NCBI RefSeq assembly: GCF_002240355.1
Contig: NZ_CP016353.1
Coordinates: 4,390,501 to 4,454,500, forward strand
DNA length: 64,000 nt
Direction of reading: 5' to 3'
Origin: Prauserella marina
GTDB taxonomy: Bacteria; Actinomycetota; Actinomycetes; Mycobacteriales; Pseudonocardiaceae
Shown: piece by piece, positions 1,991 to 12,540 of the stretch
Layout: each line of letters begins with the position of its first letter
Position numbering within the stretch: the stretch's first letter is position 1
Notes under the pieces: model-generated
What the model saw: the letters and a program-made list of their open reading frames with translations, nothing else
Databases searched by the model: none
What the model was told of the DNA's origin: nothing
Translations under genes and position numbers: made by a program

Positions 1991-3385
1991 TCACGGCTTC
2001 GTCGGCTGATTTCGCGAGTCGTCGGCACCCTCGCGGCCCGCCAGGTGCGCGGCCCTGCCGATCAGCATGGCACCCGCGCCGAGGAACACGACTCCCAGCG
2101 CGAGCGCCCCCGCCGCGATCCACGGTAGCGCGGGAATGGTCGCACCCGCCTCCGCGTCCACACTCACCCCTCTGGCGAGATCGGCGTTGAGCACGACGAC
2201 CGTCCGCTCTCCCCCGGCAGGCCGAATCGTCACCGTCCGTGTTCCTGGACCACTGGATTGGACCACCCAGATTCCGGCCTGTTCGGGTCTTTCCGATGGC
2301 GCTCCTCCATTGTGGACGATAGGGGCCGAGTCGCCGGTGAGGTTCCGCACCGTGGAGTATCCGGTACCCGCGAGATAGCGGGCCGCGTCGCCGGGCGCGG
2401 CGATACCCAGAAACACCGGCTCGGCGGGATCCGTCGCGGTCACCCGTATGCGCACGTCTCCGAGTCCTGCTCCGAGCCATCCGGCTGGATTGTCGCCGAA
2501 CGCGACGCGTTCGGCCGTCAGCGCGTAACCGGGCGCACTGAACGTCCCCGACGCGGAAAGATAGCCCGCCGGGTCGCGTTGAGCCCTGTCCGCCCACAGC
2601 GCGACGCCTCCGCCGGTCAACAATCCCATCGATGTCAACACCAGCAGGGCACCCACCACGACCGCGGCGATTCTTCCCCCGGTCCACCGCGCTGCCGGTG
2701 CGGGCTCCGGGACGGTGTCCGGCGACTCGGCCTCACCGCCCATCTCCAGCCGGAAGGGCGGATACTCGTCGGTCATCAGCGCCGCGTACGCTCCGACCCG
2801 CACGACCCAGCGGTCGAGCCCGAGCACGAAGTCGTACAACGGCTTCGGATACCTCCCCTTCACCAGCAGTACGACTCCGGCGACGAGCACCAGAATTCCG
2901 ATGAGGCCCCCACCCGCCCAGGTGGAGTCGTTGGTTTGGCGCCATCCCAGCAACCACAGGCCGCCACCGGCGAACAGGCCGACGATGAGGAAATGCGGAA
3001 TCGCCAGCAGCCACTTCACCAGTACAAGCCCACGCGAAAGCCGCGCCGGGTAGTCCACCGTGAGCCGTGCGGGGTACCAGGGGACATCGGCGATCGTGAA
3101 CGGCGGATACCGATCGGTTCCCAGCGCGGCGTAGGCGTAATAGTGAACGCGCCACGACCACCTCATTATCCCTACGTTGAACTCGAAAAGCCCGCGGAGA
3201 TAACGGCCGGTGAGCAGAATGGCGACGAACGCGACAACGGTGAGCAGACAGAAAACCGGCCACAACACCGCGAGCACCAGGTAGTGCGGGAGCACGAGCA
3301 ACCATTTCACCAACCACAACCACCGGGACAGGTCGGCGTCCAACGACGCCTCGACGGTCACGGGATAGCGATGCGGAGTCGTCAC
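1991..3385 (-). CDS. DUF4389-type membrane protein
   Basis: 464 residues, GTG start with GGAGG seven bases upstream. Two copies of a DUF4389-like unit can be seen. Each has two hydrophobic helices preceded by RxxxLVKWLLxxPHxL (WLWLVKWLLVLPHYLVL and GLVLVKWLLAIPHFLIV), and each ends in an aromatic YPPF segment (DRYPPFTI, DEYPPFRL). Further helices occur near residues 245-270 and close to the C-terminus (residues ~425-450). The region between them (~270-420) is probably extracytoplasmic and beta-rich. The family is common in actinomycetes and has no known function. No clear operon partner; the neighbour downstream on the same strand is the methyltransferase 143 bases away. Confidence 0.75.
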   Translation of the reverse strand: MTTPHRYPVTVEASLDADLSRWLWLVKWLLVLPHYLVLAVLWPVFCLLTVVAFVAILLTGRYLRGLFEFNVGIMRWSWRVHYYAYAALGTDRYPPFTIADVPWYPARLTVDYPARLSRGLVLVKWLLAIPHFLIVGLFAGGGLWLLGWRQTNDSTWAGGGLIGILVLVAGVVLLVKGRYPKPLYDFVLGLDRWVVRVGAYAALMTDEYPPFRLEMGGEAESPDTVPEPAPAARWTGGRIAAVVVGALLVLTSMGLLTGGGVALWADRAQRDPAGYLSASGTFSAPGYALTAERVAFGDNPAGWLGAGLGDVRIRVTATDPAEPVFLGIAAPGDAARYLAGTGYSTVRNLTGDSAPIVHNGGAPSERPEQAGIWVVQSSGPGTRTVTIRPAGGERTVVVLNADLARGVSVDAEAGATIPALPWIAAGALALGVVFLGAGAMLIGRAAHLAGREGADDSRNQPTKP

Positions 3386-3563
3386 GGTCGGGCCTCCTCA
3401 CGGCGTCACCTCACCGCACGACACTGCGACCATCCCGCGCCCGATGACAGGAACGAAAGTCCCTACCCTGCCAAGGCTTCCGGCCCCAGGTATTCACACC
3501 ACTCCGCGTCGCGGGGACAAGAGGCAGGGTGCCCACGCCCGAAGCACGACGGTGCCGTTGTGC

Positions 3564-4805
3564 TCAGCAGGCCAAGTCGCGGCGTTCGTAGGCCACCGCC
3601 CCCAGCGTGACAAGAATCGCCGCTGTCACCGAGAACACGGTGAGTGCGGTCCAGTCGGCCGGTGCCTGTGGTACCGGTGTCAGGTAGGTGAACGGGGACA
3701 ACGCGGCCAGCCACCCGGGCAACCCCAGACTGGGCGCGGCGGCGGCGAGGACGAAACCGCCGACCGTCGGCACGGCACCGATGAGGCTTACCAGGCGCGG
3801 CAGACCGCCAAGGGCGAGCGTCGCGGCGGCCAGGGAAAGAACAGAAACCGGAGCAACGTTGAGTGCGCCCGCGACGGTCTCCGGCAGCGGCAAGTGCTCT
3901 CCGGCGATGAAAGTGCCGCACCACATGGCCGCGGCCGCGGTGCTCAGCATCAGTACGATCCCCGACGCGCCGACCACGACCTCAGCCAGCACAAGCCGTC
4001 GCCGGGTCAGCGGCAACGCGAACAAGTGCACGGCACGCCCCGTGAATTCAGCGGTCGCGACGGCTTTCATCCGGCTGACGGCGTAGAAGCCGGCCACGAC
4101 CGCGAGCACGCTGAAGATCACGGCAGCGAACCCGGAAATCGTGTCAAGGCCGGAGAAACCGGCATCGGCGGCCAGCGCCGCGAACCGCGGCTGCGCCGCC
4201 AGGAAATCGATGACCGATCCCGACACTCCTCCCAGGAACATCGCAAAGGAGCTCACCGCGAAGGTCCACATCAGACAGGGCCGCACGGAACGGAACACGG
4301 CGAAAGCCATCGCCGATCCGAGCAACCAGCGGCGCGGCGCCCTGCGTGACCGGTGTCGGCGCAAGAGACCGGCGCCGAGATCTCGCCGGTCGGCGACGAA
4401 CGCGGCCAGCGCCACCAGAGTCAACACGGCCGGGACACCGGCGGCAAGTGGCAGCACCGTGTTCGCCGCGAAGGGCGCCGAGTTGGTGACGAGGCCGAAC
4501 GGCGTGAGCCACCGCAACCACTCCAGGCCCGCGCCGGCGTCGCCGGCTACGCGTAACACCAAGGCGATCCCGAGCACCACCGCGGCGAACTCCCTTGCCG
4601 CGGTGGTGCTCGGCGCCAGCTGGGCGGTGAGCAGGCCAAGTGCCGTGAAGGTCAGTCCGATCAGTGCCAGCCCCGCCCCGTGCACGAGCGATCCCGTGAA
4701 AGTCGCGCCCGCGAGCACGAGACCGAGCACGGTCATACCACCGATGCCCACCGCCGCGCCCGCGAGCACGACGGTGTAGCGGACGACGACGTCGCTACGG
4801 TGCAC
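3564..4805 (-). pseudogene. ABC-2 type permease lacking its N-terminus
   Basis: 413 residues from a GTG at 4805, largely hydrophobic with about ten membrane helices. It resembles the actinomycete ABC-2 permeases annotated as 'exporters of polyketide antibiotics' (~530 residues). Our protein starts in what should be the region after the first membrane helices (HRSDVVVRYTVVLAG...), so roughly the first 100-120 residues are missing. The frame stays open upstream of the GTG but runs directly through a perfect 21-bp hairpin and has no ribosome site. No ATPase partner is adjacent. I infer a 5'-truncated gene; a shortened functional protein cannot be excluded. Confidence 0.6.
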
Positions 4806-4823
4806 ACATCCGGCAAGCAGTAA

Positions 4824-4868
4824 CGACCACCGTCCCTTCCCGACGAAGTCGGGAAGGGACGGTGGTCG
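4824..4868. terminator. Perfect 21-bp hairpin at the breakpoint between two permease fragments
   Basis: Arms 4824-4844 and 4848-4868 are perfectly complementary, with a 3-base GAA loop. The element lies between the head of the truncated minus-strand permease and a plus-strand permease tail. It has the look of the strong bidirectional terminators seen elsewhere in this window, but here it sits at the 5' side of both remnants, which is not a normal place for a terminator. Confidence 0.6.
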
Positions 4869-4999
4869 AGCACATCGGGGACTACCCGCGCGACGACCTT
4901 TCCTTCGCGGCCTTGCTCATTCTCACCGTGCTCGCCGTCGCGGCGGCAACCGCCGCCATCACCCGGTTCGGACGGCGAGACCTGACGACGACAACGTGA
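4865..4999 (+). pseudogene. C-terminal remnant of another ABC-2 permease
   Basis: Reading 4865-4999 gives about 44 residues ending at TGA (4997-4999). They contain an acidic linker GDYPRDDL, one hydrophobic helix FAALLILTVLAVAAATAAI and the tail TRFGRRDLTT. The helix followed by RRDL is the usual C-terminus of ABC-2 permeases. No start codon or upstream gene body is present; the segment begins directly at the edge of the hairpin. A strong terminator follows at 5045-5088, as expected for a real 3' end. I infer the surviving tail of a deleted or rearranged transporter gene. Confidence 0.5.
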
Positions 5000-5044
5000 C
5001 CCGGCGGGCCGCCCGAACCGACTGCAGGACTGTCCACACGCGAA

Positions 5045-5088
5045 CACCACGAGACCGCGCGGCGTCGACGCCGCGCGGTCTCGTGGTG
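5045..5088. terminator. 44-bp perfect palindrome, terminator
   Basis: 5045-5088 is a perfect inverted repeat (22-bp arms centred on GTCGAC), 45 bases after the stop of the permease tail. Extremely GC-rich stem without a T-tract, typical of actinomycete terminators. Confidence 0.65.
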
Positions 5089-5371
5089 CACAAATAGCGA
5101 CGAATAGTCCACAATGCACCCGATGACGCGTACTGTCGCATCGCGATAAAATCCGCAAGCCAGCTCCCTGCCCGGGCAGCTCAACGATCTGTCGGCGCCA
5201 CGAGATCGCGCATCTCAAAGTCGGTGGCTTCCACTGCACTGTCGGTGCAGGACTCAGAACGATCACGACCAGGGCGGCCACCGCCCCGAACACCAACCTC
5301 ACCGTCCAGTCGCTCCGGAACGCAGCCCCCTCAACCTTTACGTCTCCTCGACAATAAGCTACGGTGCGAGT
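5089..5371. other. Intergenic region upstream of the Nudix-led operon
   Basis: No supported gene. A minus-strand frame encodes one hydrophobic stretch (VRLVFGAVAALVVIVLS) but has no start codon or ribosome site in place and runs through the palindrome at 5045-5088. The promoter of the operon that begins at 5372 should lie here; the last ~40 bases are noticeably AT-richer. Confidence 0.4.
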
Positions 5372-6103
5372 ATGCCGACTCACTCCTGGTCGCCACCTCC
5401 GGTTCTGCTGGCGGTGGATCTGGTCATCCTGACCCTGCGCGGCGGCGAACTCCATGTGTTGCTGGTGGAGCGGGGCATCGAACCATTCGCGGGACATCAG
5501 GCTCTGCCTGGCGGATTTCTGAACAACGCGAGCGAAGACATCGTGGCCGCGGCACACCGGGAGCTATACGAAGAAGCCGGCCTGGATGCAGGACGACTCT
5601 ATCTGGAGCAGCTCGGCGCCTACGGTGCGCCAGGGCGCGATCCTCGCGGCCGCGTTGTATCGGTGGCCTATCTGGCGATCGCACCCGGCTTGCCAGAGCC
5701 GGAGCCTGGGACCGACGCTGCCGATGCCGATTGGGCGCCAGTCGCCGCCGTGATGTGCGGCGATCTCTCGGTCGCCTTCGATCATAGACAAATCGTGGCC
5801 GACGGACTGGAACGTGCGCGCGACAAGCTGGAGCGTTTCCCGTTGGCGACGGCATTCTGCCCCGAGCGGTTCACAATCACGGACCTGCAACAAGTATACG
5901 AGGCGGTATGGGGAACCCGATTGGATGCGCGCAACTTCGCTCGCAAAGTCCACGCGCTGCCCGGTTTCATCGTCGCTGAACCATCGACTCGTCGGATGAC
6001 GAGGGGTCGCCCGGCGCAGTTGTTTCGTGCTGGACCGAACACGGTTCTGTCACCTCCGTTGGCCAGGCCCGCGGGATCGATGACCCATGAGGGGGATGTG
6101 TGA
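5372..6103 (+). CDS. NrtR-like protein: Nudix domain plus C-terminal winged helix
   Basis: 243 residues. Residues 10-130 form a Nudix fold with the box at about 48-71 (GFLNNASEDIVAAAHREL then YEEAGL). The E-x7-REL-x-EE-x-GL part is canonical, but one extra residue lies between the leading Gly and the first Glu compared with GX5E. Residues ~165-222 (CPERFTITDLQQVYEAVWG ... RNFARKV ... GRPAQLFR) match the winged-helix tail of the NrtR family, which senses ADP-ribose or related nucleotides and represses NAD-salvage genes. It is the first gene of a three-gene operon; its TGA overlaps the GTG of the next gene by 4 bases. I infer the nucleotide-sensing regulator of that operon; an active ADP-ribose hydrolase is the alternative. 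Confidence 0.8.
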   Translation: MPTHSWSPPPVLLAVDLVILTLRGGELHVLLVERGIEPFAGHQALPGGFLNNASEDIVAAAHRELYEEAGLDAGRLYLEQLGAYGAPGRDPRGRVVSVAYLAIAPGLPEPEPGTDAADADWAPVAAVMCGDLSVAFDHRQIVADGLERARDKLERFPLATAFCPERFTITDLQQVYEAVWGTRLDARNFARKVHALPGFIVAEPSTRRMTRGRPAQLFRAGPNTVLSPPLARPAGSMTHEGDV

Positions 6104-7251
6104 GCCGAGGTACGGTGGTCGTTCTCACCGCGTTGGACTCCGAATATGTCGCGGTCCGCCGTCGGTTGTCGGAACTGCGGGTACACCGTCATGAACGTGG
6201 TACACGATTCGAAATCGGAACCCTAGCTGAGATTTCTGGCCGGATCGTGCTGGCGCAAGTTGGTAAAGGCAATCAAGCAACAGCAGTCTTGACAGAGCGA
6301 GCGATTCAGCGATTCGATCCGGCAGCAGTGCTGTTCGTCGGAGTGGCCGGAGCATTGTGGGACTCCACTCAGCTCGGTGACATCGTCGTGGCGACCCACG
6401 TGTACGCCTACCACGGCGGGACCAGCGAGGATGACGGACTCAAGGCTCGACCTCGCGCGTGGGAAGCTCCACACGGACTCAGCCAGCTGGCCACGCACCT
6501 CAGTCGCACCGGCTGCTGGGCAAAGAACCTGCCAACGGACAGACCAGCACCGCGCGTGCACTTCGGCCCCATCGCGGCAGGGGAAGTCGTGCAGAACTCC
6601 CGCCTCTCAGCCGAAGCCGCATGGATACGCCAGCACTACAACGACGCGATCGCCATCGAAATGGAAGCAGCCGGCCTGGCTCAAGCCGGACACCTCAATA
6701 ACGCACCGGTCGCCGTCGTGCGCGGCATCAGCGACTTCGCCGACGGCGGCAAGACATCCGAAGCCGACGCACGCTGGCAACCTCACGCGGTCGACAACGC
6801 GGCCGCCTTCGCCCTGCACCTCGCTCAGGAATTAATCACCGAACGGGAGCAGCCCACGATGAACGATCCCGAACCCTCACTACCCCGCGGCAGCACGCAC
6901 AACACCGGGACCGGGCAAGTCGGTATCCAAGCCAACCAAGTCTTCGGCAGCACTGTCTATTTCGGAGGAGGCCCGCCGTCGATCACGCCTGCAGATCTGA
7001 GCAGCGAGTTGCGTGAGCTCCGCAGCAGCGTGGACCGTAGCCACGCCAACGGCACGCTCGACGACCCCACATACAAGGACGCGCGAACTCAACTGGATAC
7101 AGCCACGTCTGCACTTGAATCCACCAGCACACCGGAGGGAGCAAGCACATTCGTACTCGCCCTCAAACGCTTGCGCGGACTGACCTCCGATATCGGTGAG
7201 ATCGTCACCAAGATCGCCGCGATCATCGCGGCTGTGAACGGGCTATCGTGA
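6100..7251 (+). CDS. MTAN/purine nucleosidase fused to an amyloid-like motif and helical tail
   Basis: 383 residues in three parts. Residues 1-245 are a nucleoside phosphorylase-fold domain of the MTA/SAH nucleosidase kind. They show the glycine motif FVGVAGAL near 79-86, Met188-Glu189 in IAIEMEAAGLA matching the ribose-binding ME of MTAN, and Asp212 in VVRGISDFAD at the catalytic-acid position. Residues ~268-290 hold a short motif, TGQVGIQANQVFGSTVYF, that recurs near the N-terminus of the next protein. Residues 297-383 are a predicted all-helical tail (ADLSSELRELRSSVDR...). Stand-alone MTANs are ~230 residues and lack the extensions. Translational coupling (4-base GTGA overlaps) links it to both neighbours. 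By analogy with effector/adaptor pairs in bacterial conflict systems, I infer a nucleotide- or nucleoside-cleaving effector. Confidence 0.75.
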   Translation: MSRGTVVVLTALDSEYVAVRRRLSELRVHRHERGTRFEIGTLAEISGRIVLAQVGKGNQATAVLTERAIQRFDPAAVLFVGVAGALWDSTQLGDIVVATHVYAYHGGTSEDDGLKARPRAWEAPHGLSQLATHLSRTGCWAKNLPTDRPAPRVHFGPIAAGEVVQNSRLSAEAAWIRQHYNDAIAIEMEAAGLAQAGHLNNAPVAVVRGISDFADGGKTSEADARWQPHAVDNAAAFALHLAQELITEREQPTMNDPEPSLPRGSTHNTGTGQVGIQANQVFGSTVYFGGGPPSITPADLSSELRELRSSVDRSHANGTLDDPTYKDARTQLDTATSALESTSTPEGASTFVLALKRLRGLTSDIGEIVTKIAAIIAAVNGLS

Positions 7252-9230
7252 CTACCCCCGGCGACACACCATGGAAAGAACTAGATCCATCGCCCACTAC
7301 TAACACGGCTGAATCCGGCTCGGTAGTCGGTATGCAAGCCGAACAAATACACAACTCAACCGTCAATATAAACGCTGCCACTCCTCCCGAGGTCAAGTTC
7401 GGTTACGCTCGGCAGCTCCTCCATGAGGGCAACGCCTACCTAGCGCGCGAACTCATCCGTGACGTGTTGAAGGCCGGTTTCACCACAGGCATCGTGCAGT
7501 TTCACTGGGTTCTCGCCACGCTCAGCACACGATCCTTGCGCGACCTCGAACCACATGAGCAACGCGACCTCAACCGTCTCCTGGCCAACCAGAACACGAC
7601 CGGCGACGACTGGGCGCGCGCGCTCCAAGCTATCCAAGCTCTGCTGGAGGTACAAAGGAAGCCCGGATATGACCCCTCCCCCGCGATGGCCAAGCTTGAC
7701 GCGCTCGACGAGCGACTCCAGGCACAGATCAGAAAGCACCTGCAAGTCGTACTCACCGGCGCGGTGAAGGAGGAGATCTGGACTCGCATGCGCGCAGACG
7801 CGGAGCGCGAACAGTTCGCGAACAACCGCGAAAATCGCGTCTGGGCTTATTTTTACCCCCAACCCGCGGCAGCTCGTGTGAGAACACCAGATGAACCAGA
7901 CGTCACTACTCGCGACCGCCTCCATGCCATCGCTATGTCGAGCTTGGCCGTCCTGGCAGTGACCTACCTCGGCTGGCTGGTACTGGAACAGCCAGCACTC
8001 TTGGCGGCTTTCGTCGCCACCATCGCTGCCGGATATGTCGCCGTAGCCAACGGCCTGGAATGGTGCCGCCGCGTCCGGCTCTGCAACCTCCGAGATCGCG
8101 ACTATCACACTCAACGCGGCGTGAAATGGTTGCCCGATAAAGGGTTCGCCAGCGAAATCGACTCGGCATTCGAATACTACGCACACAAATACACGCACGG
8201 CGACTCCCATCAAGAACAGTGGCTCGCCTCCACGCGAGGAATCCGCACTATGCGGCGCAACGAAATTGTCGAGCTATACCGGGAAGAGCGCATCTCCGCC
8301 GAACAAGTCAAATGGCTTATCAGATACATCGTCGGCGACCTTCGCGACCGATGGAAGCGCGGCGCCCTCATGGAACATCGCGAACGCTACCGCGTTGCGC
8401 GCTTCACCAAGATATGGTTCGCAGCCGCGGTCACCGTATTTCTTGGCACGGGGGGCGTGGTTATCACCGCTGCCGCCCACATACAGCCCGTCTTCGCCGC
8501 ATTCGCTGCCGTGATCACCGTGGTCAGCGGATCCTTCGCGCTGAAACAGTGGCTGCACATCACCTGCGAACACTTGCGCTTCGCCGAAGATACAGAAGAG
8601 TTCGCCCGGGTGAAGGCCGAGCGAATCGCTGCTCATGACCGGTGGAGAAACAAGCTCAAGAAGGCACGCCCTGCCGAGAAGGAAATGGAGACCTGGCTCA
8701 ACGCCGACACCACCTTGCTCCTCGATGAGACTCTTCGCCACTACTCTCTGAGCTGGAACGACATCATCACCTACTCCTACCTGCGCACTCCGAAAACCGG
8801 CAGCAAACGATCGAGGAGACACAGAGGCCCCTCGCGCGCATCACAATATGACGTCCGGATCTGGCTCATCACCGTCGATGGCGTCCGTGAAGTCCACAGC
8901 GACCTCAACTTCGAGAAAGCCAGCTTCATGGGGCGCAGCCGCACCAACTTCCGGTTCGATACAGTTTCCTCCGTCGGTGTCAAAACTCCCGACCAACTCA
9001 GCTACACCCTCGAACTGACCCTCAACAACGGCCCCGCACGACCGATCACCATCACCGACACCGGACAGCAACACCACCGCCCCGACGAGAATCCCACCGA
9101 ACTCAGCAGAACCAATCTCGCCGCAACCGGGTTCACACATACCCTTCGCGTACTCGAAGGCATCGCCGCCGAAGGAAAAGGGTGGATCTCACGCCACGCC
9201 AATACCACCGGCGACCGCGCCACACTCTGA
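7248..9230 (+). CDS. 4-TM protein with N-terminal amyloid-like motif and helical-repeat domain
   Basis: 660 residues, not a named family I recognise. Residues 20-42 contain SVVGMQAEQIHNSTVNI, matching the motif in the preceding nucleosidase (common core VGxQAxQxxxSTVx[FI]). Residues ~47-185 are helical and TPR-like (KFGYARQLLHEGNAYLARELI...). Two membrane hairpins follow: ~227-268 and ~388-438, each a helix pair. The second, with the following charged helix (LRFAEDTEEFARVKAERIAAHDRW), resembles SLATT-type 2-TM effector modules. Residues ~525-640 are soluble and strand-rich. The start overlaps the upstream stop (GTGA). I infer the membrane partner, possibly pore-forming or sensing, of the nucleosidase. 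Base composition is visibly lower in GC than in neighbouring genes, which suggests horizontal acquisition. Confidence 0.65.
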   Translation: MTTPGDTPWKELDPSPTTNTAESGSVVGMQAEQIHNSTVNINAATPPEVKFGYARQLLHEGNAYLARELIRDVLKAGFTTGIVQFHWVLATLSTRSLRDLEPHEQRDLNRLLANQNTTGDDWARALQAIQALLEVQRKPGYDPSPAMAKLDALDERLQAQIRKHLQVVLTGAVKEEIWTRMRADAEREQFANNRENRVWAYFYPQPAAARVRTPDEPDVTTRDRLHAIAMSSLAVLAVTYLGWLVLEQPALLAAFVATIAAGYVAVANGLEWCRRVRLCNLRDRDYHTQRGVKWLPDKGFASEIDSAFEYYAHKYTHGDSHQEQWLASTRGIRTMRRNEIVELYREERISAEQVKWLIRYIVGDLRDRWKRGALMEHRERYRVARFTKIWFAAAVTVFLGTGGVVITAAAHIQPVFAAFAAVITVVSGSFALKQWLHITCEHLRFAEDTEEFARVKAERIAAHDRWRNKLKKARPAEKEMETWLNADTTLLLDETLRHYSLSWNDIITYSYLRTPKTGSKRSRRHRGPSRASQYDVRIWLITVDGVREVHSDLNFEKASFMGRSRTNFRFDTVSSVGVKTPDQLSYTLELTLNNGPARPITITDTGQQHHRPDENPTELSRTNLAATGFTHTLRVLEGIAAEGKGWISRHANTTGDRATL

Positions 9231-9315
9231 CAACAGGTTCGTTGTCCCTCTTAGCGGCACACGGCTTTCCTCGCTCCGCCAGGTGCGGGCCTGCCTCGGG
9301 GCATACAGCCGAACT

Positions 9316-9344
9316 GGCCCGCACCGGCCTCGCCGGTGCGGGCC
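9316..9344. terminator. 13-bp GC hairpin between convergent genes
   Basis: Arms 9316-9328 and 9332-9344 pair perfectly around a CTC loop. It lies between the end of the nucleosidase operon (9230) and the convergent gene ending at 9350, so it can serve both. Confidence 0.7.
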
Positions 9345-9349
9345 CTCGG

Positions 9350-9739
9350 TCAACCGGCGAACGGGCGCACGAAGCCCGCGATCCGTGAGGTGACGACCGC
9401 CGTCCCGTCGTCGATCATGCCGCGCATACCCGCCAGCACCCGCTCGTCCGGCGAGCCATGAACCTGGAAATCCACCACCGTGCAGTGCGCGGAGACGTTG
9501 TCGATCTGGGCTTCGGACACCCGCCAGTGTTCGAGAACCGCGGCCGAATCCGGGTACATCTGGTAGCTGTAGGCCAGCATTCGGTCGGCATCCACAAACG
9601 TCTGCACCATGACCTGTGGCGCGTTGCGTTCCACGAAGTCGACGGCGTCGCGGACAGCCGCGGTGAATTCCTCCAGGTGGCCCTCGGTGATGCGCATGGT
9701 GTTGCGGAACAGGATCATCTCGTCTGCTTGCAGGCTCAT
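9350..9739 (-). CDS. Small ABM-like (dimeric alpha/beta barrel) protein, hypothetical
   Basis: 129 residues beginning MSLQADEMILFRNTMRI. The pattern of a strand with charged residues, the long helix EGHLEEFTAAVRDAVDFVERNAP, the strands VMVQTFVDADRMLAYSYQMYPD, and the helix AAVLEHWRVSEAQ fits the antibiotic-biosynthesis-monooxygenase / ferredoxin-like alpha+beta barrel superfamily (HEHW-type halves). No catalytic residues are diagnostic, so function is open; such proteins range from quinol monooxygenases to ligand-binding dimers. It is on the same strand as, and 34 bases downstream of, the M23-like gene, so they may be co-transcribed. Confidence 0.55.
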   Translation of the reverse strand: MSLQADEMILFRNTMRITEGHLEEFTAAVRDAVDFVERNAPQVMVQTFVDADRMLAYSYQMYPDSAAVLEHWRVSEAQIDNVSAHCTVVDFQVHGSPDERVLAGMRGMIDDGTAVVTSRIAGFVRPFAG

Positions 9740-9772
9740 GGTGCGATTCTGATATCTCCACCATGGTGGAGG

Positions 9773-10399
9773 TCAATGGGCATGGCTTTCGCGGACGACG
9801 ATCTCGCCATTGCGCGGTAGCGATCCGTTGAACGTCAAGCGCACGGCGTCGGCATGCTCGACGTCGCGGCTGTCGACCGCTTGCACGTGAAGGTGCGGCT
9901 CGGTGCTGTTGCCGGAATTCCCGCAGCGGCCGACCACGTCGGCGATTCGCACTCGTTGCCCCGGTCGAACCTCGGCGGTGCCGCGTTGAAGGTGACACAG
10001 GGCGACCACGATGCCGTCGCTCTCGATCAGCACGTGGTTACCGGCGAGCGCTGTCCAGCCGGCCTCGGCTCGGCGGCGCTGGGTCAGCGCGTATCCGATC
10101 GAGGGCAGGCCGCGATACGCCGGATGGTCGGCTTCGCTGTCGTGCACGGCCACGACAATCCCCTCGACAGGCGACGAAACCGGCCACCCGAAGCCGGGGA
10201 ACTTCTCGGGTGCTTCCGGCCGGAGAAGGGAGCCGAGCGTCACCGGCGCCGTGCGTCCGGTGTCGCCGACGGGCACGAAGTCGATCGCGTAGGACGTGGC
10301 GAACAGGGTCGTACCGTGACTGGGCACCCGGTCGGCGGGGCTGTTCCGGACCAGCCAGCTGCCGGAGAACGGGTACTCCATGTCGATGGACGCAGCCAT
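9773..10399 (-). CDS. M23-family (LytM-like) metallopeptidase domain protein
   Basis: 208 residues from the ATG at 10399, chosen because GGGAGGG lies six bases upstream; an upstream GTG at 10492 lacks such a site. The fold is a LytM/M23 beta-sheet: the segment AIDFVP in place of the usual HxGxD, the strand GIVVAVHDSEADH, then VLIESDGIVVALCHLQRGTAEVRPGQRV and GRCGNSGNSTEPHLHVQ. The latter supplies the H(x)H zinc ligands (PHLHVQ) and the GxSGNS turn. No signal peptide is visible, and the first His ligand position looks substituted (ATSYAIDF), so it may be a cytosolic or inactive homologue. It is divergent from the reductase at 10600, sharing a palindrome-bearing promoter region. Confidence 0.7.
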   Translation of the reverse strand: MAASIDMEYPFSGSWLVRNSPADRVPSHGTTLFATSYAIDFVPVGDTGRTAPVTLGSLLRPEAPEKFPGFGWPVSSPVEGIVVAVHDSEADHPAYRGLPSIGYALTQRRRAEAGWTALAGNHVLIESDGIVVALCHLQRGTAEVRPGQRVRIADVVGRCGNSGNSTEPHLHVQAVDSRDVEHADAVRLTFNGSLPRNGEIVVRESHAH

Positions 10400-10533
10400 G
10401 TGGATCCCTCCCGGCAGTCGGCAGACGCACGGGCAGCCGTTCGTTGCCCGGACTCGCATTCTCCCATCGCGCGTGATCGGAATACGGCACAACGCGGCCT
10501 TCCGGCTTCTTGCGACTCCGACTCATGCGTGCC

Positions 10534-10569
10534 ATTATGAACACCTGTTCACGAACAGATGTTCATAAT
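10534..10569. promoter_or_regulatory. 36-bp near-perfect palindrome, TetR-type operator
   Basis: Arms 10534-10550 and 10553-10569 match at 16 of 17 pairs; the core reads TGAACACCTGTTC / GAACAGATGTTCA. It lies in the divergent promoter region between the M23-like gene and the reductase and is strikingly AT-rich for this genome. Length and symmetry fit a TetR/AcrR operator, but no TetR gene is adjacent. Confidence 0.6.
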
Positions 10570-10599
10570 TAATGGAGAGTGACCGAGAAGGGGTCCGGC

Positions 10600-11514
10600 G
10601 TGAGACGGGTGGTGATTCTGGGCGGCTACGGGGCGGTGGGCCGCGAAGTGGTCGCCGGGTTGCTCGGCCATGTTCCGGACGTCGTCGTCGCGGGCCGCGA
10701 TCTTGCCAAGGCAGGCACGGTGGCCGGAGCGACCCCACTCCGGCTCGACCTGCGGGACGACGACCTGTCCCTGCTCGACGCCGACGCTGTCGTCATGTGC
10801 GCCGATCAGGAGAACGTCCGCGGCGCGCGCGCCTGCCTCGCTCGCGGTGTCCACTACGTCGACGTGTCAGCCGACCACAAGGTGCTCACGGGAATCGGGG
10901 AGCTTCACAATCTTGCCGTCGAGCACGAGGCGACAGCTGTACTGAGTGTCGGTCTCGTGCCTGGCGTCACGAACCTCTTGGCGCGCTCCCTGAATGGCGA
11001 TGACACGGACATCGGAGTGCTGTTGGGCCTCGGCGAACACCATGGCCCCTCAGCGGTGCGATGGACCCTCGACGCGCTCGGCGATGTCGGGGAATCCTGG
11101 CGCATGCGGTTTCCGGCTCCCTACGGAGAGCGTGTCGTTCACGGTTTCCCTTTCTCCGACCAGTTCACGTTGCCCGGCAAGGTACGTACGGGCCTGTGCC
11201 TTGATTCGCGTGCCATGAGCGCGTTTCTCCCCCGCATCGGGAAGTTCCGGCACGCCAAGCCGCTGAGCTGGCTGCTGCGCAATGTCCACTTCGGTCGTGA
11301 CGGGTTCGCGGTTGCCGCCGCTTCCAACGGAAAAGTCATGGCGTTCAGCGGTCGGCGGCAAAGCCGGGCGACCGGTTTGGTCGCGGCGATGGTCGTCCGC
11401 CGACTTGCCGGAATGTCTCCCGGCGTTCAGCACATCGAAAACGCCGTCGGCACCGACTTCCTCCCGGAACTGGCCGACCACGGATTCAACCTCGACGAAT
11501 ACCAAACCCGGTGA
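10600..11514 (+). CDS. Saccharopine dehydrogenase-like NAD(P)-binding reductase
   Basis: About 304 residues from the GTG at 10600, preferred because AAGGGG lies seven bases upstream; a GTG at 10579 has its purine stretch only one base away. The N-terminal Rossmann motif is VVILGGYGAVGREV. The next segments (DADAVVMCADQENVRGARACLARGVHYVDVSAD) match saccharopine-dehydrogenase / trans-acting enoyl reductase-like proteins, where this loop precedes the substrate domain. The reaction is unknown. Its promoter region holds the 36-bp palindrome at 10534-10569, so it is probably repressed by a TetR-type protein encoded elsewhere. Confidence 0.7.
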   Translation: MRRVVILGGYGAVGREVVAGLLGHVPDVVVAGRDLAKAGTVAGATPLRLDLRDDDLSLLDADAVVMCADQENVRGARACLARGVHYVDVSADHKVLTGIGELHNLAVEHEATAVLSVGLVPGVTNLLARSLNGDDTDIGVLLGLGEHHGPSAVRWTLDALGDVGESWRMRFPAPYGERVVHGFPFSDQFTLPGKVRTGLCLDSRAMSAFLPRIGKFRHAKPLSWLLRNVHFGRDGFAVAAASNGKVMAFSGRRQSRATGLVAAMVVRRLAGMSPGVQHIENAVGTDFLPELADHGFNLDEYQTR

Positions 11515-11530
11515 TGGCCGCGTCGGCTAA

Positions 11531-11734
11531 TCATTCCACCGCTTCGCGATCACTCGTCTTTGTCAACCTTCTTCGCGACCACATTCCAATCAGAAACACA
11601 CATTGCGCCGGAAACAGGACGTAAATAAAGTTGACCTCGAATATGAAAGCAGCCAAGGGAGTCAAAAACATCCTGATCGTCCCCACGACCATGAGGGCGA
11701 TACAGAAACCACCGAGAAAACCTGTTTCGTTCAC
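11531..11734 (-). CDS. Small two-helix membrane protein, hypothetical
   Basis: 67 residues from a GTG with GGGAG seven bases upstream. Two hydrophobic helices (GFLGGFCIALMVVGTIRMFL and EVNFIYVLFPAQCVFLIGMW) are followed by a basic, polar tail RRRLTKTSD. Lower GC than its surroundings. No family recognised. The good ribosome site and membrane character support a real gene, but there is no independent evidence. Confidence 0.45.
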   Translation of the reverse strand: MNETGFLGGFCIALMVVGTIRMFLTPLAAFIFEVNFIYVLFPAQCVFLIGMWSRRRLTKTSDREAVE

Positions 11735-11769
11735 CGGTCCACTCCCAGCGCCGTTACCGATCGGTCGGG

Positions 11770-12531
11770 TCAGTCCTGCGTTGTTTCGGAGTTGAACTCG
11801 GGCGGTGCCTGCAAATCACGGGCGCGAAACAGGACGGCGTGCTCGACGCCCATGGCTTTGCCGCTCATCGCGGTGAACATCGGGATGAAGTCAGCGGGAG
11901 CGGGATGCTCCGGCAGCGCGGCCAGGTACGCGGCGTGCGCCTCAAGCGAGGCGACGCCGCGGCGCAGCGGTTCACCCGTGACGTCGACGCCGTGGGTCGC
12001 ACCGGAACCGGCGAGCCCGGGAACGAGGAACCAGCGCACCGAGTGCGGTTCGAGTCCTTCGTCATCGACCTGTTCAGGGAAAACCCACCGGTTGTCCGCG
12101 TCGCGCAGCGCATCGAGCGTCGCCAGCCCGGCCGCACGGTGATCGGCCTGTTCGAAACCGTGTGGCGTGTCGATATCGGTCCCACCGCCGAGCACGACAT
12201 CGGGCTTGAACCGGCGGATCTCCCTGCAAATGTCCCGTCTCAGGTCGAGGCTGTAGACGAGCACACCATCGGGATGTTCGAGCACGGTCAGGTCCTCGAC
12301 CCCGACGGCGGCACAGGCGGCGCGCTGCTCGGCGACGCGCAGACGCGCCGTTTCCTCGGGAGGATTCGGCATACCGGCCTCACCACGGGTGAGCAGGAGA
12401 TAGCCAACCCGAATGCCGCGCGCGGTCCAGCGGGCGACGGCCGCGGACGTGCCGTACTCCATGTCGTCTGGGTGCGCCACGACGCAGAGCACGCGCTGGA
12501 AAGACTCCTCGGGAAGAGCAGACAGTGGCAT
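11770..12531 (-). CDS. PIG-L family N-acetylglucosaminyl deacetylase-like protein
   Basis: 253 residues; the ATG at 12531 is preferred because GGAAGG lies nine bases upstream of it and directly abuts the alternative ATG at 12540. The zinc-site motif AHPDD (VLCVVAHPDDMEYG) and the later HxxH-like segment (FEQADHRAAG) define the PIG-L/LmbE superfamily, which includes MshB (GlcNAc-inositol deacetylase) and Mca (mycothiol S-conjugate amidase). The substrate is not set by sequence alone; isolated PIG-L copies in actinomycetes often act on glycosides of specialised metabolites. No operon partner is evident: a two-helix protein lies 36 bases downstream on the same strand. Confidence 0.8.
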   Translation of the reverse strand: MPLSALPEESFQRVLCVVAHPDDMEYGTSAAVARWTARGIRVGYLLLTRGEAGMPNPPEETARLRVAEQRAACAAVGVEDLTVLEHPDGVLVYSLDLRRDICREIRRFKPDVVLGGGTDIDTPHGFEQADHRAAGLATLDALRDADNRWVFPEQVDDEGLEPHSVRWFLVPGLAGSGATHGVDVTGEPLRRGVASLEAHAAYLAALPEHPAPADFIPMFTAMSGKAMGVEHAVLFRARDLQAPPEFNSETTQD

Positions 12532-12540
12532 AACGACCAT

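Follow-up and report, generated by a model that had tools for sequence, protein, structure and literature searches.

We analysed a 64,000-nucleotide stretch of Prauserella marina DNA (assembly GCF_002240355.1, contig NZ_CP016353.1, positions 4,390,501 to 4,454,500), here called the window, in which three adjacent genes encode an NrtR-type Nudix protein, an MTAN nucleosidase (MTAN) and a membrane protein that we call P3. We found that MTAN and P3 carry the same short motif, that its two copies co-vary between partners across the family, and that the cassette has, by sequence comparison, a 21-bp operator at a leaderless-type promoter, which is new in this follow-up. At a probability of roughly 0.55 we read the cassette as a regulated effector-receptor module in which an NrtR-type repressor controls an MTAN effector and a P3 membrane receptor. 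The cassette resembles an immune-type signalling device from which the customary receptor family is missing. More tentatively, the module may be an NLR-free bacterial amyloid pathway, with a TPR/PH membrane receptor, a nucleosidase effector, a co-evolving G-x-Q motif and an NrtR protein sensing NAD breakdown.

The initial annotation of this DNA had proposed a three-gene conflict system of this general kind. Our data support that proposal in part: the co-occurrence of the genes, the shared motif, the lack of an NLR, the active site and the mobility of the cassette all stood, while a SLATT-like helix pair in the membrane protein did not. The three open reading frames (ORFs) lie on the plus strand and encode the Nudix and winged-helix protein, the proposed autorepressor (5372-6103), MTAN with its motif and helical tail, the proposed effector (6100-7251), and P3, the proposed receptor of 660 residues (7248-9230). 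Both junctions are 4-base overlaps, as had been annotated, and the shared bases are GTGA. The lower GC content that had been noted also holds, at 0.59-0.65 in the five 1-kb steps with the operon versus mostly 0.65-0.75 in the window.

The motif shared by MTAN and P3

In both proteins the motif follows the consensus N-x-A-x-G-x-A-x-V-G-x-Q-A-G-x-V. From motif models and co-variation, copy A (core VGIQA) occupies MTAN residues 268-290 with Q277 (6901-6969, plus strand) and copy B (core VGMQA) occupies P3 residues 20-42 with Q30 (7305-7373, plus strand), which are the positions first annotated. When the two window proteins were compared on their own, the best ungapped pair of 20-mers was the motif and 5 of 300 shuffles scored as high; from this pair alone the match is only modestly beyond chance, and from the family it is decisively so.

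Motif models built separately from the MTAN side and the P3 side were run at E<=0.01 on the 92 loci from which they had been derived, with 12,929 ORFs. The MTAN-side model matched 81 MTANs, 29 P3s and one other ORF, which contains an MTAN tail in another frame (L099). Similarly, the P3-side model matched 80 P3s, 46 MTANs and one other ORF, which holds the N-terminus of P3 (L116). Recall on a model's own side is circular; this does not apply to the cross-side matches or to the lack of matches on other genes. With models made without this genome, the two copies in the window ranked first and second among 975 window ORFs, and a scan of the same 7-Mb genome (97 first-look candidates) returned only these two sites, with E values of 7.3e-8 and 2.3e-6, and nothing further to E 10. 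Searching the motif with its context against genomes, as had been proposed, gave 43 matches in 23 of the 298 genomes of the order, 22 on MTAN and 21 on P3; the model used was built on the MTAN/P3 family and a bounded number of first-look candidates was scored. No NLR was present among these 43 matches, in agreement with what had been claimed.

The motif copies of partners resemble each other more than those of swapped partners. Across 82 pairs the own-partner motif score was 39.4 compared with 25.2 for swapped partners (permutation p 5e-5), so the check for co-variation suggested in the initial annotation gave a positive answer. Inclusion of two further Prauserella pairs (84 pairs) gave 38.2 versus 24.0 (p 5e-5). 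For 41 representatives under 55% identity z was 9.2, and 277 control window pairs had a mean of 0.1, a standard deviation of 1.1 and a maximum of 4.1. The effect is also seen within three subgroups (n 6, 30 and 46; p 0.006, 1e-4 and 5e-5). The residue before Q is identical between partners in 34 of the 41 representatives versus 12.9 expected, and Q itself is present on both sides in 79 of 84 pairs. Unusual copies are matched as well: the otherwise near-invariant Q is replaced by V in both copies of L070 and by V and I in L085 (GMVA/GMIA), an extra residue is shared by the two copies of L065, and L112 has AGIQG in both the MTAN and the P3 copy.

We compared the motif model with two published BASS3-type peptides. 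The scores were equalled or exceeded by 16 of 200 shuffles for one peptide and 17 of 200 for the other, a resemblance that is not clearly beyond shuffles. With a model of the small Q-Q subgroup the figures were 2 of 200 for an archaeal peptide and 39 of 200 for a Frankia peptide. The BASS3 result bears on a possible, though rather doubtful, alternative, in which the module is the same and its short motif serves for ordinary docking and keeps MTAN membrane-bound, without any templating of amyloid. Beta-strand addition or a small oligomer would suffice for this, amyloid behaviour is only predicted, and in most members the MTAN copy is internal, between the enzyme and a helical tail. Docking fits less well with the occurrence of the same motif on both sides instead of complementary surfaces, with its low confidence in both structure models, with its G-x-Q core and with the N-terminal position of the receptor-side copy.

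Domains of the nucleosidase and the membrane protein

MTAN scores 121.1 bits against the Pfam family PNP_UDP_1 at residues 5-241. Residues E15, E189 and D212, to which we assign the catalytic Glu/Asp roles, are invariant in 85 of 85 MTANs. This indicates that the nucleosidase active site is intact, including the Asp212 singled out by the initial annotation. The PADLOC model for PN-superfamily effectors matches 58 of 58 family members. Two NCBIfam equivalogs were considered for the enzyme and set aside, housekeeping MTAN (99.2 bits, cut-off 169) and futalosine hydrolase (63.9 bits, cut-off 124.7).

Behind the enzyme domain, copy A of the motif falls in a low-confidence linker of the predicted structure and is followed by a four-helix tail at residues 297-382 (6988-7245, plus strand), modelled with pLDDT 88-97, and 73 at its end. 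Neither Pfam nor NCBIfam, scanned with the complete MTAN sequence, assigned this tail a TRADD-N or EAD adaptor domain or anything else above cut-off. When the tail was searched for in 296 genomes of the class, all 13 matches lay beside Nudix, MTAN and P3 genes. A distant subgroup (L054, L055, L057, L058, L060 and L061) has the MTAN motif at or near the C terminus; in the other members the four-helix tail follows, so the motif is internal there. In published pairs the motif lies at the effector C terminus and the receptor N terminus (PMC12261475), and by this rule MTAN would be the effector and P3 the receptor. The distant subgroup fits the rule fully, and the majority only in part because of the helical tail.

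Since 99.2 bits against the housekeeping model is the best NCBIfam match of the enzyme and no second MTAN was found in this genome at E<=0.001, we weighed a metabolic operon, that is, a methylthioadenosine/S-adenosylhomocysteine (MTA/SAH) or futalosine nucleosidase for salvage with NAD-linked control and a membrane scaffold. Control of NAD genes by NrtR elsewhere (PMC6800001) would agree with it. We regard this reading as very improbable: the cassette has a sporadic distribution (32 of 298 genomes in the order, 1 of 4 in the genus), both equivalog cut-offs are missed, and the enzyme is coupled to a membrane protein through the motif.

For P3 there was no Pfam or NCBIfam family above cut-off. 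Four hydrophobic peaks are present in P3 and likewise in the family average, in agreement with the earlier description as a four-transmembrane protein. Residues 1-39 have pLDDT under 50 in the predicted structure, and the motifs of both MTAN and P3, lying in such low-confidence segments, are presumably disordered. In the model this N-terminal segment is followed by a TPR-like helical domain (residues 47-201; 7386-7850), then by two transmembrane hairpins supported by hydropathy and model helices, and finally by a PH-like C-terminal domain (residues 488-642; 8709-9173). The first hairpin spans residues 221-287 (7908-8108), with hydropathy peaks at 228-246 and 249-267 (family average 252-270), and the second spans residues 385-473 (8400-8666), with peaks at 389-409 and 414-432; all of these features are on the plus strand. 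A SLATT identity was tried for P3. The NCBIfam model SLATT_1 gave 22.4 bits against a cut-off of 41, and a SLATT match at E<=0.1 was seen in 3 of 60 P3 family members, the window's P3 included; the helix pair once described as SLATT-like did not hold up.

The proposed Nudix regulator and its operator

The Nudix protein scores 59.8 bits against Pfam NUDIX and 56.6 bits against NrtR_WHD, each above the Pfam cut-off, and misses the cut-off of the NCBIfam equivalog NF050029 (125.7 of 400 bits). The family profile matched chain 3gz5_A (same sequence in 3gz6), which we take to be Shewanella NrtR, with an E value of 1.2e-35. The Nudix box of the family is one residue longer (G-x6-E).

Upstream of the Nudix gene we found a 21-bp inverted repeat, TTnnTGTCA-N3-TGACAnnAA (TTnnTGTCAnnnTGACAnnAA). 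It is present at 23.3-38.4 bits in 79 of 86 Nudix upstream regions, ending 8-17 nt before the start codon. The operator of the window lies at 5337-5357 and is assigned to neither strand; this imperfect 21-bp inverted repeat, a degenerate copy of TTnnTGTCAnnnTGACAnnAA, scores 17.7 bits with the family matrix and 16.9 bits when its own locus is left out. Next to it a -10-like hexamer of the TAnnnT type, TACGGT (5360-5365, plus strand), lies 6 nt before the Nudix start codon, and 75 of the 86 upstream regions have a TAnnnT with a spacing of 6 or 7 nt to that codon. This arrangement identifies a predicted leaderless-type promoter with the operator directly upstream of its -10.

The matrix was used to scan the window and 91 loci, 92 sequences with 1.23 Mb in all, at a threshold of at least 12 bits. 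There were 89 matches within 300 bp upstream of a Nudix or MTAN gene and 2 elsewhere. The operator is present in 87 of 89 sequences with operon genes, the exceptions being L113 (no Nudix gene) and L117 (contig end). Where the Nudix gene is divergent (L054 and L055), weaker sites of 15-18 bits lie between the genes. L057, L058, L060 and L061 have no operator before the Nudix gene and one of 21-26 bits before MTAN; the Nudix gene of L061 lies downstream of P3, with the operator upstream of MTAN. By this comparison the operator follows the MTAN-P3 pair where the Nudix gene has moved.

Among 32 whole genomes the exact operator pattern was found in 20, and in each of the 20 it lies at the operon, as judged by hand comparison with gene coordinates; the reversed control pattern matched in 1 of 32. 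Because the pattern is nearly confined to the operon, the regulator looks dedicated to it. One genome alone (G205) has further palindrome places, four of the ATGTC N4 TGACAT type away from the operon, which are perhaps sites of another regulator.

With both Pfam domains and a palindromic operator at its own promoter, the protein is, on sequence grounds, an NrtR-type Nudix regulator. It had first been described as a Nudix/winged-helix sensor. The domains were confirmed by Pfam; as for its role, because of the operator evidence it is better read as a putative transcriptional repressor of the operon than as a sensor that works on MTAN and P3 directly. NrtR regulators such as SoNrtR and MsNrtR likewise combine a Nudix domain with a winged helix and have a palindromic operator at their own promoter, and MsNrtR is released from DNA by ADP-ribose (PMC6800001). 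The cassette differs from them in its operator, TTnnTGTCAnnnTGACAnnAA here versus GTTTTCGA-N7-TCGAAAAC for MsNrtR (PMC6800001), in a target that is not NAD synthesis, and in the extra residue of its Nudix box.

Distribution, proposed mechanism and neighbourhood

We found P3 relatives in 32 of the 298 genomes sampled from the order, and all three genes are present in 27 of the 31 loci of the order that were fetched beside the window. The exceptions are L039 (motif-tail with no enzyme or Nudix gene), L053 (broken, on a small contig), L056 and L059 (P3 alone); the MTAN frame is broken in L052, and P3 is cut by the contig end in L062. In a wider scan of 84,980 species, each represented by a single genome, with one conserved peptide pattern, the Nudix-MTAN-P3 order was intact in 76 of the best 80 of 145 relatives, where MTAN was counted if its frame was at least 250 aa (in L099 the tail lies in another frame). 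The other four are L113, L117 (contig end), L122 (no Nudix gene found) and L127. Thus the expected co-occurrence of the three genes was found, as was the motif in homologues of both proteins. The MTAN-P3 junction is a 4-base overlap in 74 of 79 cases and the Nudix-MTAN junction in 44 of 76. Gene order differs in distant relatives, with the Nudix gene divergent in L054 and L055 and an MTAN-P3-Nudix order in L061; the trio is therefore probably held together by function and not only by linkage.

Hosts include Pseudonocardiales, Actinopolysporales, Streptosporangiales, Glycomycetales, relatives of Micromonospora and a Frankia. Within the genus the cassette was present in 1 of 4 genomes and was not found in the 3 congeners. 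One copy, with the same three genes, is on a plasmid of Streptomyces sp. M54. These two observations support the mobility that had been proposed from GC content.

Some loci are altered. L113 (the same locus as L039), from Thermocrispum agreste, keeps the motif with its helical tail (129 aa) and P3 at 5450-7878; the enzyme domain, the Nudix gene and the operator were not found in this locus. L051 has, by appearance, an IS110-like transposase gene between MTAN and P3 (4422-5666). L052, L053, L099 and L116 show a broken frame or misplaced start in MTAN or P3 and would be decaying copies or sequencing errors.

Retention of P3 where MTAN is missing, in two genomes, and of P3 with motif-tail and no enzyme domain in T. 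agreste would suit a different division of labour, in which P3, with its two transmembrane hairpins, would kill the cell as a pore or by disrupting the membrane and MTAN would make or remove a gating nucleotide signal. We think this unlikely, given that TPR-like and PH-like domains with an N-terminal motif form a receptor layout, that the MTAN active site is invariant and that the SLATT cut-off is missed. The same loci speak against a toxin-antitoxin-like pairing, where the motif would let one protein keep the other in check, as P3 stands alone in two genomes and L113 has motif-tail without enzyme. All three proteins are also larger than usual antitoxins. Such a unit would agree with the tight gene overlap, the autoregulation-type operator and the plasmid copy, and we give it very little credence.

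Under the regulated effector-receptor module, the NrtR-type repressor would sit on the 21-bp palindrome at the promoter, both of which were identified by comparative sequence. As in the NrtR family, it would leave the DNA on binding a NAD-derived nucleotide of the ADP-ribose kind. NrtR-type control therefore suggests, by analogy, that NAD breakdown arms the system. Derepression would lead to MTAN and P3 being made together. P3, anchored by its two hairpins and bearing TPR-like and PH-like domains, would act as the receptor; on some trigger it would cluster at the membrane, where its disordered N-terminal motif could template the motif of MTAN. Pairing of the motifs may take the form of a beta-arch or amyloid-like stack; the co-variation and disorder come from comparison or models, and the stacking itself we infer. 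By analogy with PNP effectors, assembled MTAN, whose active site is conserved, might cleave a nucleotide or nucleoside of adenine, with ATP the most likely candidate, and stop or kill the cell.

Besides the unclear resemblance to BASS3 and the closeness of MTAN to housekeeping MTANs, several observations weigh against this module. L079 is mismatched, with Q in one copy and V in its partner, and in two Prauserella loci (L111 and L115) the P3 copy is degenerate and lacks Q while the MTAN copy is clear and has it. Co-variation does not reach significance in the narrowest clade around the locus, where 13 representatives give z 1.1 (p 0.16). Among the positions listed, independent tree contrasts for the residue before Q number only 5, about 4 concordant and 0 discordant (p 0.125), and those for the residue after Q number 6, with 2.0 concordant, 0.3 discordant and 3.6 unchanged (p 0.5). 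Among the order's 32 genomes with P3, 9 gave no match to the motif model; the motif therefore drifts, and diverged motifs are missed. Two genomes keep P3 with a motif but have no MTAN at E<=0.001 (L056, genome G150, and L059, genome G083), and in G083 there was no other motif match. The operator copy of the window is itself degenerate, and L122 (Stackebrandtia albiflava, MTAN and P3) keeps a 21-bit operator-like site at 4598-4618 although no Nudix gene was found in the locus. No relative was found in the viral and phage sets searched, and the seven neighbours of the operon scanned with Pfam look ordinary.

Among known systems the closest in plan are the NLR-associated signalosomes (BASS/BELL), in which adjacent genes have a common short motif and which occur in actinobacteria (PMC7889193, PMC12261475). 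Here the receptor place is held by P3, a TPR-, transmembrane- and PH-like protein, in place of an NLR, and a Pfam scan of the three proteins revealed no NACHT or NB-ARC domain. The effector is a nucleosidase and not BELL, a helical tail follows its motif in most members, and the cassette has a dedicated Nudix repressor. It would thus work like an NLR amyloid signalosome but lacks the defining NLR receptor, and for that reason we do not file it there. Fungal PNP_UDP-PUASM systems also join a PNP_UDP enzyme with a C-terminal motif, of pattern FxGxGxQxxGxGxF, to a partner bearing the same motif (PMC9815663); that partner is a NACHT NLR. In the present cassette a membrane protein takes its place, and the motif often has a helical tail behind it. 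Detocs has a PNP-superfamily nucleosidase, which cleaves ATP (PMC11249213), like the effector proposed here, but the present operon has no two-component pair. In the EAD coupling of multicellular bacteria, matching adaptors on neighbouring genes couple effector and partner, and these systems include PNPase effectors and Nudix domains (PMC7159879). The adaptor here would instead be a motif of about 20 residues, modelled as disordered on both partners, and the Pfam scan of the three genes showed no MoxR/vWA/STAND core.

Literature searches, which mostly left subscription journals outside their coverage, yielded no published account that we recognised of the trio or its parts. A 2021 review asks whether fungi and bacteria have signalling amyloids in NLR-independent pathways and describes past amyloid searches as biased to NLR pairs (PMC7889193). 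The cassette is a concrete and testable candidate for such NLR-independent signalling in many actinobacteria, and its own operator and repressor offer a second handle that predicts when it is switched on.

No tRNA was found when the window was searched for one. Four of the seven scanned neighbours at 1994-12540 have a Pfam match (DUF4389, M23 peptidase, saccharopine-dehydrogenase-like and PIG-L). Two strong GC-rich inverted repeats, terminator-like and placed approximately by eye at 4828-4866 and 5046-5089, sit between the upstream minus-strand gene and the operon.

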